From assembly GCF_003935895.2 (NCBI RefSeq), contig NZ_CP054058.1, positions 1,364,001-1,428,000 on the forward strand: DNA of 64,000 nucleotides, read 5' to 3'. The notes beneath the pieces are model-generated. The model was not told where the DNA came from, made no database searches, and saw only the letters and a program-made list of their open reading frames with translations. A program made the position numbers and the translations under genes. Of this stretch, positions 17,664-25,148 are shown piece after piece; the stretch's first letter is position 1; each line of letters starts with the position of its first letter. Source of the stretch: Scandinavium goeteborgense (GTDB lineage: Bacteria; Pseudomonadota; Gammaproteobacteria; Enterobacterales; Enterobacteriaceae).

Positions 17664-19139
17664 TTACTTCGCCGCTTGCTCAACAACCGGCGGAGTCCAG
17701 GTTTTATTCAGCACTTCAGCCTTCGGCCAATAGGTACGAATCGTCATTTCGAAATCGCTCTTCGGCGCAGGCAGCCAGTTCGTTTCTTTCTCTTTACCCG
17801 GAGAATCATGCTGAACGTAGATGGTCAGAGAGCCATCGGCGTTGTAGGTCATGTTCTTCAGGTTTTTGGTGCCGACGGAATAACGCTCGGTGTCATTCTT
17901 GGCGAAGAAGTGCTGCGGGTCATACATCGTCAGTGACCAGAAGCCATTCACCGGCGGCGTTTGGCCTTTTGCGAAGGTGATGGTGTAATTGTTATCACCG
18001 TTCAGACGCTCGCCTTTCCCATCCACTTCGACGAAGAAGTAACGCGTTTCTTCTGGCTGGTTAACGTACATGTTCGATTTTGCGGTCGCGGTACGCGTGA
18101 TGTAATCGTAACCCCAGCGAGCACCGTTGGCAGGCGTGTTCCAGCCGTTTGGCAGTGCCTGGCCGTTGGTTTTGAAGTCGAACATCGGCTTCACAACTTG
18201 TTCTTCAGTTTCAGCCGCAGCGGCATCAATGGCTTTCTTGATTTCCGGATCGGCTTTGGCAGCGGCCAGCATCCCGTTGATTGCCGCATAGCGCGCTTCT
18301 TCACCCGGTAATGGTGGCACTTTGGTCATCACATCGGCGAGCTGGTCAAAGAACGTCGTCGGTTCAACCCACTTAATTTCGGTCGCACCTGAGCTATCTG
18401 CCGGGAAGTGCGGCGAATTTTTCCAGTCGGTGGTTTTTTTCTTGCCGTCGTACTTGCTCAGAGGGTAAATCACCACCTGATTCAGCACGGATTGCAGCGC
18501 GTTCTGATCGGCCTGATCGTCATTCACAAAGACACGCGGCCCCATCGCCACCAGTTCAGTTGGGGAATGGATAACCTTGGTGATACCGGCAGGCACTTTG
18601 CCTTTCCAGTTAGGGCCAACAACCAGATAGTTACCCGGTTTAGTCCCGTACTGCTTACCGATTTTAGAGAATTCATCGCTGCGCGCATCGTAAAGGGCAT
18701 ATACCCAGAAACGATCGCCAAAGTCAGGAACCTGAAGCACGACAGGATCGTCATCGACCGCGCCATAACCAAAGCCGTATACCACGTCCTGATTTGGGTG
18801 AGCCACCCAGCGCTGCATCGGAGAGATATAACCGTGCAGCATGGAAACGTAACCAATTGGCGCAACCGGCAAAATACCGCCGTTCAGACCTGGCTCTGGT
18901 GCATGGGCGAAAGAGGCACGGCGGTTATAGGCGTTAACCAGCGGCCAGCCCCATACGTAGGCATCTTTGGCGATGACGGTAGCGGCTTCTTTGGTCATTA
19001 CCGTTCCAGCAGGGATCGCCGGCTGGGCATTAGCGGCTACAGGTGCGGTGGCGGTTTGCGCGTCGGAAGCGTAAGCCCCTGAGAAACCGGTGAGCGCTAA
19101 CGCAATTGCGCTGGTCAGAAGTAACGTATTCTTTTTCAT
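17664..19139 (-). CDS. Secreted DUF1254/DUF1214 protein (paralogue 3)
   Basis: The product is 491 aa with a signal peptide ending near GAYASDA. It has the classical two-domain form. The DUF1254 region contains AYVWGWPLVNAYNRRA, AHPNQDVVYGFGYGAVDDD and GDRFWVYALYDARSDEFS. The DUF1214 region contains NGFWSLTMYDPQHFF, TERYSVGTKNLK and NWLPAPKSDFEMTIRTYWP. The start was placed at MKKNTLLLTSA because an AGAGG site lies 7 bp before it and the signal peptide begins there; the frame is open further upstream to 19325. Function unknown. It lies next to tRNA-Pro on the same strand. Confidence 0.86.
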   Translation of the reverse strand: MKKNTLLLTSAIALALTGFSGAYASDAQTATAPVAANAQPAIPAGTVMTKEAATVIAKDAYVWGWPLVNAYNRRASFAHAPEPGLNGGILPVAPIGYVSMLHGYISPMQRWVAHPNQDVVYGFGYGAVDDDPVVLQVPDFGDRFWVYALYDARSDEFSKIGKQYGTKPGNYLVVGPNWKGKVPAGITKVIHSPTELVAMGPRVFVNDDQADQNALQSVLNQVVIYPLSKYDGKKKTTDWKNSPHFPADSSGATEIKWVEPTTFFDQLADVMTKVPPLPGEEARYAAINGMLAAAKADPEIKKAIDAAAAETEEQVVKPMFDFKTNGQALPNGWNTPANGARWGYDYITRTATAKSNMYVNQPEETRYFFVEVDGKGERLNGDNNYTITFAKGQTPPVNGFWSLTMYDPQHFFAKNDTERYSVGTKNLKNMTYNADGSLTIYVQHDSPGKEKETNWLPAPKSDFEMTIRTYWPKAEVLNKTWTPPVVEQAAK

Positions 19140-19330
19140 TAAGGTGCCTCTTACTTTACTCATTATTCCCGACCCTAATAACGCATAAAATCGCCAGGGG
19201 GGAGTGATTGCAAATGAGTATAGTAGGCATCGACAGATACGTCGGGACAAGTTATCAGTATGTTTATTAATGAACTTTGCGGTTGGCGTTAAGGTGAAAA
19301 AGGTGGTAGGGAAAGAGGTTTTCACAAAGC

Positions 19331-23184: not shown

Positions 23185-23862
23185 CTAAAGCGTGCTGATT
23201 TTACCCTGGAATATCACCGGCCCTGAAGGTCCCGCCAGTTTTGAACCGCCAACAGGTTCAAGGCTGATCGCCAGTACCGATTGATTGTCCAGCGACTCGG
23301 CGCCCAGTGTGAACGCGTTACCCGTGGTGCGGGTGATGAGGCCCAGTGAGCGCGGCGGATGACTGCCTTTAATCAGCCACAGCTGTAGATTTTTGTTTTG
23401 CGGTAGCGTCACATTAAGCGCGGAGACCTGAATCATCGACGCAGATTTATTCACGCTGACCACGAACTGTTCACCCGGTTGGGCGCCACTTAACACGGCG
23501 ACCGGCTGCATCGGCGACGCCTGTTCCGGTTTCGTCACGTAGGTGAATACCAGCACACCCGCCAGCGCCGCGGCAAGCGCCCAGCCGACCCAGGCTGTTG
23601 GTCGCGAACGAACCGGGGTAACTGCCGCTAATGGCGTACTCTGATTAATGTCGCGCTGAATAGCCCACCAGACGTCCGGCGCAGGAGTGACATCCTGTGT
23701 TGTCACGTCTATTCCGCTAAAGGCTTTTTGCCAGCGCGTGACTTGCTGCGCAAAGTCAGCATCGGTGGTCATTCTTCGTGCGAGCTGCGCCCGCGTGGGT
23801 TCATCCAGCACCCCGAGAACGAATTCGGCGGCGAGGAAGTCATCATTTTCCTGAATGTTCAT
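23185..23862 (-). CDS. RskA-type membrane anti-sigma factor
   Basis: The product is 225 aa. The N-terminal cytosolic sigma-binding part (1-75) contains FLAAEFVLGVLDEPTRAQL, the RskA-type helix, and lacks the HxxxCxxC zinc motif of ZAS anti-sigmas. One membrane helix follows (AWVGWALAAALAGVLVFTYV, about residues 90-110). A periplasmic RskA domain carries KNLQLWLIKG and PSGPVIFQGKIS. It should hold the adjacent ECF sigma at the membrane until a periplasmic signal triggers proteolysis. The start codon overlaps the sigma stop (ATGA), implying translational coupling and balanced dosage. Not found here in E. coli K-12. Confidence 0.88.
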   Translation of the reverse strand: MNIQENDDFLAAEFVLGVLDEPTRAQLARRMTTDADFAQQVTRWQKAFSGIDVTTQDVTPAPDVWWAIQRDINQSTPLAAVTPVRSRPTAWVGWALAAALAGVLVFTYVTKPEQASPMQPVAVLSGAQPGEQFVVSVNKSASMIQVSALNVTLPQNKNLQLWLIKGSHPPRSLGLITRTTGNAFTLGAESLDNQSVLAISLEPVGGSKLAGPSGPVIFQGKISTL

Positions 23863-24407
23863 AGGCCCACACACTCCCTGAGATGTGCCAGCGCGCGGCG
23901 GATCCAGCTTTTAACGGTGCCTTCTGGCTGGCTCAACGACAGGGCGATTTCGGTTTGTGACAGCCCGCGATAGTAAGCCAGGGCAATACTTTGCCGCTGT
24001 TCAGGCGGTAAGTTCTCCAGGCAATGCTGCAAGCGGCGGGCTTCCAGATGACTGTCTTCCTCCGCAAGCGGGGCCTGAAAGCCTTCTTCCGCTTCGGTAA
24101 TGTCATCCACCGAACAGCAGCGATGCTCATGTTTTCTCAGGTAATCAATGGCGCGATTTCTGGCGATATGACTTAGCCAAATCTGCGGCTCGCTGCGCTG
24201 CTCGTCGTATCCGGTCGCAGACTGCCAGATTTGAATGAAGGTATCGTGCAGGATTTCCTCCGCCCAGTCGCGGCGTCGGACCATGCGCAAAATAATCCCA
24301 AACAGGCGGGGAGAAATCGTGTGGTAGAGCTGTGCCAGAGCATCTTTATCGCCGGAGGCTATTTTGGTCATGATGCCGGCATGAATATGAGGCGCGTTGG
24401 TTGTCAT
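23859..24407 (-). CDS. ECF RNA polymerase sigma factor (SigK/ECF19-like)
   Basis: The product is 182 aa with only sigma regions 2 and 4, as expected for ECF sigmas. Region 2 includes LYHTISPRLFGIILRMV and AEEILHDTFIQIWQSA, then IWLSHIARNRAIDYLRKH. Region 4 has LPPEQRQSIALAYYRGLSQ and the HTH part LSLSQPEGTVKSWIRRALA. The start MTTNAPHIHAG is chosen because AGGGA lies 5 bp before it; an upstream GTG at 24434 lies inside an inverted repeat. Its partners are an RskA-type anti-sigma downstream and a FAS1 protein upstream. The SigK-like assignment is inferred from this partnership and the promoter, not from a phylogeny. Confidence 0.88.
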   Translation of the reverse strand: MTTNAPHIHAGIMTKIASGDKDALAQLYHTISPRLFGIILRMVRRRDWAEEILHDTFIQIWQSATGYDEQRSEPQIWLSHIARNRAIDYLRKHEHRCCSVDDITEAEEGFQAPLAEEDSHLEARRLQHCLENLPPEQRQSIALAYYRGLSQTEIALSLSQPEGTVKSWIRRALAHLRECVGL

Positions 24408-24424
24408 CAGTGTCCCTGTTAAAG

Positions 24425-24450
24425 GTGCAGCCACGCATCAGTGGCTGCAC
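24425..24450. repeat. 10-bp perfect inverted repeat between the FAS1 and sigma genes
   Basis: GTGCAGCCAC and GTGGCTGCAC flank a 6-nt loop in the 60-bp gap between the FAS1 stop and the sigma start. There is no T-tract on the minus strand (CTTTAA follows), so a classical terminator is unlikely. It could protect the upstream FAS1 message or lower read-through into the sigma gene. Confidence 0.75.
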
Positions 24451-24467
24451 ACAGTATAGGCAACGCT

Positions 24468-25028
24468 TTATGGCATCAGCACAGTGTCGATCACATCAAT
24501 CACGCCGTTGCTCTGATTGACGTCGTAGGTGGTGATGTTGGCGATATTGCCGCGCGCATCTTTCAGCTGGATATTGTGCGGGCCGTTCGCCATCACCCAC
24601 AGCGAACCGCCATTCACGGTTTTCAGCTCGGCTTTACCGCCCCCGGCTTTGATTTTTTTCTCAAGCGCTTTCATATCGTATTTGCCCGCCACCACGTGAT
24701 ATGTCAAAACGGCGGTGAGTTTTTGTTTGTTTTCGGGTTTGAGCAGGGAGTCCACGGTTCCCGGAGGGAGTTTTTCGAAGGCGGTGTTAGTGGGGGCGAA
24801 GACGGTAAAGGGCCCGGTTCCTTCGAGTGTCGGGACCAGTCCGGCAGCTTTTACTGCCGCCACAAGCGTGGTGTGATCTTTCGAATTCACGGCGTTTTGC
24901 ACGATATTTTTCGATGGGTACATGGCTGCCCCGCCGACCATCACAGGGCTGTTATCCATCATGGCGGCCTGAGACACGCCGCTGAAAACCAGTGCAGAAA
25001 AAATCAGAGATGGCAGAAATTGTTTCAT
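24468..25028 (-). CDS. Secreted FAS1 (fasciclin) domain protein
   Basis: The product is 186 aa with a signal peptide ending SGVSQA. A single FAS1 domain fills the mature part: the H1-like GPFTVFAPTNTAFEKLP, the YH motif in LTYHVVAGKYD, and the C-terminal NGVIDVIDTVLMP. FAS1 domains mediate adhesion or ligand binding at the cell surface. The start at 25028 (MKQFLPSL) is preferred over the ATG two codons upstream, because GAGGG then lies 7 bp away rather than about 1 bp. It is the first gene of the FAS1-sigma-anti-sigma operon and carries the ECF-like promoter. Confidence 0.9.
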   Translation of the reverse strand: MKQFLPSLIFSALVFSGVSQAAMMDNSPVMVGGAAMYPSKNIVQNAVNSKDHTTLVAAVKAAGLVPTLEGTGPFTVFAPTNTAFEKLPPGTVDSLLKPENKQKLTAVLTYHVVAGKYDMKALEKKIKAGGGKAELKTVNGGSLWVMANGPHNIQLKDARGNIANITTYDVNQSNGVIDVIDTVLMP

Positions 25029-25082
25029 TTTCATTCCCTCATTTACGTTTTCGATTCGGGCTAAAGTGTGCCCTCAACTGTT

Positions 25083-25110
25083 AATACGAATGAGCGAAGA
25101 AAACGGATGC
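25083..25110 (-). promoter_or_regulatory. Candidate ECF (SigK-type) promoter of the FAS1 operon
   Basis: On the minus strand GCATCC (25105-25110) and CGTATT (25083-25088) are separated by 16 bp, about 55 bp before the FAS1 start. This resembles the CATCC...CGAAT-type promoter reported for mycobacterial SigK (recalled) and the usual ECF -10 CGT core. The operon's own sigma factor is the obvious candidate, which would give autoregulation. Confidence 0.6.
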
Positions 25111-25148
25111 AGAAAAAGTGAAAAAAAATGACGCCAGGGAAAATCTCC

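Follow-up and report, generated by a model that had tools for sequence, protein, structure and literature searches.

The DNA analyzed was a window of 64,000 nucleotides from Scandinavium goeteborgense (NCBI RefSeq assembly GCF_003935895.2, contig NZ_CP054058.1, positions 1,364,001 to 1,428,000 of the forward strand). It carries a cassette of three genes, encoding a fasciclin (FAS1) protein, an extracytoplasmic function (ECF) sigma factor, and an RskA-type anti-sigma factor, which very probably constitutes an autoregulated SigK/RskA-type signalling operon with its own secreted FAS1 protein as the main output. All three genes lie on the minus strand in the order FAS1, sigma, anti-sigma, and they are flanked by rplY and radD. 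An earlier note made from the sequence alone had reported these three genes and regarded them as an enterobacterial counterpart of sigK-rskA-mpt70/83 of Mycobacterium tuberculosis. The three-gene observation was confirmed, and the interpretation was partly supported: its substance holds, but it has a precedent, because a cassette of this kind from Enterobacterales had already been described in Yersinia and the one in the window is a diverged relative of it. The components were located as follows (positions are those of the window):

25081..25111, minus strand: promoter-like site TGCATCC-N16-CGTATTAA ahead of the FAS1 gene, the proposed target of the sigma factor (motif match).
24468..25028, minus strand: secreted single-domain FAS1 (fasciclin) protein of the long-loop type, 186 aa, with an alternative ATG at 25034 (PF02469).
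24453..24458, minus strand: TATACT hexamer, its start lying 12 nt downstream of the first stop-codon base of FAS1 (locus comparison).
24425..24450, minus strand: 10-bp RNA hairpin directly 3' of TATACT, between the FAS1 and sigma genes (stem pairing across loci).
23859..24407, minus strand: SigK-like ECF sigma factor, 182 aa, whose Cys129 and Cys179 align with Cys133 and Cys183 of SigK (Pfam, structure match).
23859..23862, minus strand: ATGA overlap of the sigma stop and the anti-sigma start (sequence), with predicted translational coupling.
23185..23862, minus strand: RskA-type anti-sigma factor, 225 aa, with one transmembrane segment and an RskA_C periplasmic domain (PF10099).

The FAS1 product matched PF02469 (E 4e-33; match length 408 nt) and has a hydrophobic, signal-like N terminus, in agreement with the claim that a secreted fasciclin is encoded. 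The protein contains no cysteine and therefore no lipobox of the kind carried by an MPT83-type lipoprotein, so that the lipid anchor of MPT83 in M. tuberculosis has no counterpart in this protein. Compared with the bacterial FAS1 structure 1w7d, extra residues were seen at two places, near 125-135 and 154-160. The protein may have an adhesive or protective role. In the sigma factor, Sigma70_r2 and r4_2 were both above cut-off, and the closest solved structure by sequence was that of M. tuberculosis SigK (4nqw, E 2e-22). Its Cys129 and Cys179 fall on the redox pair Cys133/Cys183 of the mycobacterial protein, and this pair was kept in 80 of 81 sigma factors compared, including all 33 from Enterobacterales.

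The anti-sigma factor matched PF10099 (RskA_C) with 63.1 bits (E 4e-17, cut-off 29.4), and its single hydropathy peak covers residues 92-110; the RskA_C match spans this peak and the part that follows it. These two results uphold the description of the protein as a one-helix RskA-type anti-sigma factor. A stretch of the form SLEPxGGS...GPxGPV is conserved in it. No Pfam model for an N-terminal class I anti-sigma domain reached E 0.001, and the NCBIfam anti-sigma models stayed below their cut-offs (NF052375, 91.9 versus 100 bits; NF010501, 33.6 versus 225 bits). By eye, helix 1 resembles the AS19-1 motif quoted in PMC7406223. A first search for solved structures gave no match at E 0.1, and a second returned only unrelated membrane and zinc-finger chains (E 0.07 to 0.9). 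The proposed translational coupling of the sigma and anti-sigma genes was borne out as far as the overlap is concerned, which is seen in CTATGAAC; the coupling itself is predicted from it.

The association of the three genes was then followed across genomes. Relatives were represented by the best 80 of 471 related loci, all from named genomes. Since some of these loci stop at contig ends, the number bearing FAS1 is a lower bound. At least 32 loci had the order FAS1-sigma-anti-sigma and 12 the order sigma-anti-sigma-FAS1; in 5, FAS1 was found elsewhere in the fetched piece, and 31 had none there. Loci L057, L063, L066, L067, and L083 are contigs of genomes G004, G003, G002, G005, and G030, respectively, and each was counted once. 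Of seven genomes of the genus, five (G000 and G002-G005) had FAS1 beside the anti-sigma gene, whereas G001 and G006 did not; six of 36 genomes of the family had the two genes adjacent, the remaining 30 having neither. The sigma gene lay between them in the loci inspected for it. Within a sample of 197 genomes from the GTDB order to which the window belongs, all four FAS1-bearing genomes of its family had RskA_C adjoining FAS1. A search of the Escherichia coli collection (5,426 genomes; blastn, 11-base words) gave no match to the cassette, and in one E. coli record (not K-12) rplY and radD are separated by 124 bp that hold no annotated gene.

A broader sample of 249 Pseudomonadota genomes contained RskA_C in 60 and FAS1 in 65, with both in 45 (Fisher p 4e-21), and 21 of 70 RskA_C loci had FAS1 within 3 kb, compared with about 0.1 expected; neither figure is corrected for relatedness, the expectation assumes 4.5-Mb genomes, and the counts omit 14 weak, partial or additional-domain FAS1 rows from genomes already represented. 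Chance co-location was rejected on this excess and on the existence of two gene orders. The survey of gene neighborhoods that the earlier note had called for thus revealed a link to FAS1 that holds well beyond the genus. In the same genomes, the FAS1 genes sorted into length types: the Pfam match is about 405 bases long in the cassette type and about 369 in the other. RskA_C was present in 33 of 38 genomes with a FAS1 match of 399-411 bases, versus 12 of 26 whose FAS1 genes were all of other types, and the long type occurred in all 21 genomes in which FAS1 and RskA_C were co-located. For this count, 13 weak, partial or additional-domain FAS1 rows were omitted, as was G306, which has a 24-residue fragment only.

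The sequence ahead of the FAS1 gene, read from 25111 to 25081, is TGCATCCGTTTTCTTCGCTCATTCGTATTAA; the cassette stretch as given, ending at 25110, reaches into this promoter-like site. Within the window it was the sole match with 0 mismatches, and five other matches had 3. The strict core TGCATCC-N15-18-CGTA was found in 31 of the 32 FAS1-first loci, against a single match in 1,228,810 control bases taken from those loci; in L064, the FAS1-first locus without it, one base of the first element is changed. The FAS1 gene of the window therefore has the conserved upstream site that goes with membership in the Enterobacterales form, and identity with the published Yersinia site is indicated because the motif is common to the loci of Yersinia species.

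A related arrangement was found in Alishewanella (L105) and also in L008 and L010, from genomes of the order, in which a DUF4331 gene follows the anti-sigma gene and is preceded by TGCATCC-N16-CGTT. The output family PF14224 was checked by Pfam in these three loci, and L130 resembles L105 by similarity. These loci have a SigK-like sigma factor, an RskA-type anti-sigma factor, and TGCATCC-N16-CGT in common with the window, but their output is PF14224 and not FAS1: they are a control module of the same kind with a different output. At FAS1 genes elsewhere in two Alishewanella genomes (L167 and L168), no TGCATCC motif was found in the fetched stretch.

Quick trees with a midpoint root were calculated from the fetched loci, which include no mycobacterial rows (81 rows for sigma plus anti-sigma, 50 rows for FAS1). 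The 33 Enterobacterales loci (31 of the 80, the Pantoea plasmid locus L011, and the window) formed one clade with SH-aLRT values of 99 for the regulators and 96 for FAS1. The clade splits into two subclades. The window and its genus group with Kluyvera and most Pantoea loci, that of the plasmid among them, whereas Yersinia, Rouxiella, Lelliottia, Pantoea dispersa, and others belong to the second subclade. Yokenella fell into the subclade of the window in the regulator tree and was unresolved in the FAS1 tree. Identity to the window among eight loci outside its subclade was 72-77% for FAS1, 48-53% for the sigma, and 35-42% for the anti-sigma factor, FAS1 being the slowest-evolving of the three proteins. 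The Enterobacterales cassettes occupy different sites, including Pantoea plasmids. The cassette had been suggested to be old or repeatedly transferred; the single clade and the different sites fit one old lineage with subsequent movement and loss. Recent acquisition of foreign DNA was rejected on composition, the G+C content being 0.51-0.60 across cassette windows versus 0.49-0.59 in the flanks. One locus of this clade, L067, comes from a record titled Chryseobacterium sp. 18061. It is an enterobacterial locus and the sister of the window, with which it shares 93% identity over sigma plus anti-sigma, and the assembly is mislabelled or contaminated.

The closest described system is the mpt83-sigK-rskA cassette of Yersinia enterocolitica, whose FAS1 gene is preceded by a SigK site; it was reported in 2020 (PMC7509140), and the cassette is credited there to a 2008 paper (Veyrier). 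According to the same article, the sigma factor drives the FAS1 promoter, full-length RskA inhibits and truncated RskA activates, as seen with reporters in E. coli and Yersinia. The cassette in the window has the same gene content and order and is a diverged member of this clade. Loci of other Yersinia species, which stood in for Y. enterocolitica in the comparison, share the promoter-like site, the cysteine pair, and the TATAMT-hairpin element described below with the window. They belong to the other subclade, and the window cassette sits between rplY and radD; in two of them, FAS1 was 74-76%, the sigma 50-51%, and the anti-sigma 37-38% identical to the window proteins.

SigK-RskA-MPT70/MPT83 of M. 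tuberculosis has the three protein families in common with the window. Together with SigK as the best solved-structure match of the sigma factor, the retained pair Cys133/Cys183, and the conserved link to FAS1, this bears out the view of the cassette as a counterpart of sigK-rskA-mpt70/83. In M. tuberculosis, mpt83, dipZ, and mpt70 form a triad of their own, each with a SigK-dependent promoter (PMC9861118). Publications disagree on the ECF19 label for the sigma factor: M. tuberculosis SigK is placed in ECF18 and Yersinia SigK in ECF19 (PMC7509140), and the tuberculosis anti-sigma factor is filed under ECF19 (PMC7406223), at odds with the ECF18 numbering for SigK elsewhere.

Control by sigma factor, anti-sigma factor, and promoter in the window is presumed by analogy with the Yersinia relative. 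In the resting state, the sigma factor would be retained at the inner membrane by the N-terminal part of the anti-sigma factor. When an envelope signal reaches the periplasmic RskA_C domain, the anti-sigma factor would be altered or cleaved, proteolysis being the presumed step. The freed sigma factor would then transcribe from the TGCATCC-N16-CGTATTAA promoter and raise FAS1 and, via read-through, sigma and anti-sigma as well.

Several findings weigh against this model of an autoregulated operon. The NCBIfam SigK model NF007228 gave the sigma factor 139.3 bits, below the cut-off of 226, and two other sigma models outscored it, likewise below their own cut-offs; the protein is therefore called SigK-like and not SigK proper. 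Outside the FAS1-first group the strict core was rare, being present at 2 of the 13 FAS1 genes that lie downstream and, among the 46 sigma genes not preceded by FAS1, at 5 (L126, whose sites lie just outside the fixed windows, would add one to each count). The loci behind the 31 of 32 are related and not independent events. Outside the family, nine genomes in the sample of 197 had both FAS1 and RskA_C, none of them adjacent. In the five cassette-bearing genomes of the genus, sites with at most 2 mismatches and matches in the backward control numbered 7 and 4, 9 and 3, 7 and 0, 9 and 1, and 8 and 4, respectively, an excess over the control in every genome, so further targets may exist.

The cassette copy was the only 0-mismatch site common to all five of these genomes; G002 had one additional exact match, located within an open reading frame (ORF). 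In seven of eight genomes, TGCATCC-N15-17-CGTA was not above the backward control. Thirty of 40 loose matches were examined with their surrounding sequence: 5 were cassette sites, 21 lay inside ORFs of at least 120 aa, and 4 lay outside such ORFs. One site shared by two sister genomes accounts for two of these four and lies in a region converging on another ORF. The match L157, from the genome of the window (2 mismatches), precedes an unclassified 376-aa ORF by about 150 bp, and L166 has no ORF start nearby. None of the examined matches other than those of the cassette had the appearance of a conserved promoter, and a wider regulon beyond the cassette is possible but not supported.

That the FAS1 gene is a bystander, a neighbor by chance outside the control of the sigma factor, is highly improbable. 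Many FAS1 genes and RskA-type loci are indeed found apart, as such a view would have it, but the promoter-like site is conserved ahead of FAS1, and the linkage occurs in two orders (32 FAS1-first and 12 FAS1-last among the 80 loci). In Massilia L090, moreover, the sigma gene and a FAS1 gene 5 kb from it both carry the motif variant TGAATCC. The opposite extension, in which FAS1 would be both output and sensed partner, binding RskA_C and reporting the state of the envelope to the sigma factor, must be considered improbable as well. Both FAS1 and RskA_C are expected outside the inner membrane, and their co-inheritance (33 of 38 long-loop FAS1 genomes versus 12 of 26) would suit a functional contact. 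Against it, FAS1 is far better conserved than the anti-sigma factor (72-77% versus 35-42% identity), and 31 of the 80 RskA-type loci lack FAS1 in the fetched DNA. In addition, 9 of 15 picked genomes, mostly chosen from loci without an adjacent FAS1 and carrying no completeness value, gave no FAS1 match at all. FAS1 therefore cannot be a general requirement as a signal.

Between the FAS1 and sigma genes, a hexamer TATAMT, in which only the fifth base varies, was present in all 33 Enterobacterales loci, where it starts 8-16 nt downstream of the first stop-codon base of FAS1. It was found at the equivalent place in none of 217 other called ORF ends from 31 of these loci; these ORFs were called by length, and some are perhaps spurious. 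The FAS1-first Ralstonia locus L128 has no such element. A hairpin follows within a few bases 3' of the hexamer; it is weak in L080, which has no 5-bp stem there. Across the whole clade, the 32 stem-bearing loci had 17 distinct 5' arms, while the hexamer stayed constant. In 13 clade-A loci, the stem was paired in 99.2% of cells, and a C-G to U-A double change occurred in 6 of the 13. The covariation score and the share of paired cells were reached by 0 of 500 shuffles. Since two double-changed pairs were reached in 52 and the number of pair types in 498 of the 500, the support from these 13 rows alone is moderate. A known Rfam element was not found between FAS1 and sigma, the sole match above the gathering score being the rplY leader. 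That the TATACT region masks the ribosome-binding site of the sigma gene was not supported as a general rule: the mean pairing probability was 0.29 in 32 of the 33 loci, with values of 0.14 or less in nine Yersinia loci and at least 0.6 in 6 of the 32.

The element may serve as the -10 box of a promoter inside the operon, or it may act on the RNA, in processing or stability. As a -10 box, TATACT would belong to a separate housekeeping promoter that provides basal sigma and anti-sigma factor, with FAS1 alone depending on the sigma factor. We consider this plausible but somewhat short of an even chance. It would agree with the constancy of TATAMT in 33 of 33 Enterobacterales loci and its absence from the 217 other ORF ends. 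However, a -35 box at constant spacing was not seen by eye in the aligned rows, a simple promoter scan did not report TATACT, and the predicted start site would land within the hairpin. A role in the RNA, such as processing or protection of the 3' end of the FAS1 mRNA, would likewise fit the paired changes of the hairpin. A limited literature search found nothing in print on the TATAMT-plus-hairpin element, the long-loop FAS1 type, or the relatives with DUF4331 output. The element and the output swap to DUF4331 are new handles on the wiring and re-use of the module.

The activating signal of SigK-RskA is stated to be unknown in PMC7509140. From the literature on other FAS1 genes, light or photo-oxidation may be taken as the best lead. 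The cassette would then be a photo-oxidative module that responds to light, singlet oxygen or a related oxidation of the envelope, with FAS1 as a protective or aggregation protein. This proposal, which does not conflict with the autoregulated SigK/RskA-type operon and merely names its trigger, is possible although unlikely. A paper on photo-oxidative stress lists the Rhodobacter sphaeroides fasciclin gene RSP_1409 in its stress table, with log2 changes of 2.8 and 4.5, and R. capsulatus RpoE/ChrR is nearer to SigK/RskA (34%, 25%) than to R. sphaeroides RpoE/ChrR (24%, 13%) (both PMC7074977). The fasciclin genes mpk83/mpk70 of M. kansasii, which have putative SigK sites, are light-induced (PMC9861118). 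An Azospirillum fasciclin under RpoE-ChrR has been connected with photo-oxidative stress and flocculation (cited in PMC10949492), and algal photo-oxidation-inducible carotenoid-binding proteins are treated in an article that names fasciclin 21 times (PMC7477208). To this the conserved redox cysteine pair of the sigma factor can be added.

Conversely, the fasciclin gene of the organism studied in PMC10949492 was unexpressed under the light regimes tried there, and for the mycobacterial promoter PMC7509140 gives no inducing condition but macrophage contact. Light or oxygen data on enterobacterial cassettes were not found in the literature search, and among the papers listed none was relevant to the expression of enterobacterial FAS1. 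R. sphaeroides and Azospirillum rely on RpoE-ChrR, likewise an ECF sigma system tied to a FAS1 protein, but with another type of anti-sigma factor: that of the window is a membrane protein of the RskA type without cysteine. ChrR has a zinc site and its own promoter element, in which it differs from the RskA-type system.

A still wider view, which we regard as doubtful, is that SigK-RskA-FAS1 is a switch for photo- or envelope oxidation common to non-phototrophic Enterobacterales, phototrophs, and mycobacteria, in which the long-loop FAS1 protein is protective and the TATAMT-hairpin makes basal regulator levels independent of the output. If true, it would supply both a trigger for SigK and a harmless model host. 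The compact single-operon form in a fast-growing enterobacterium makes the trigger, the fate of the anti-sigma factor, and the function of FAS1 testable without mycobacteria.

Two further observations concern the surroundings of the cassette. The minus-strand segment 23052-23142, about 40-135 bp past the anti-sigma stop, contains a promoter-like site together with the L25 leader of Rfam (RF03131). No minus-strand terminator was reported between the anti-sigma stop and this leader, and read-through into rplY is possible. Farther away, a DUF1254/DUF1214 protein is encoded at 17664-19325, also on the minus strand.

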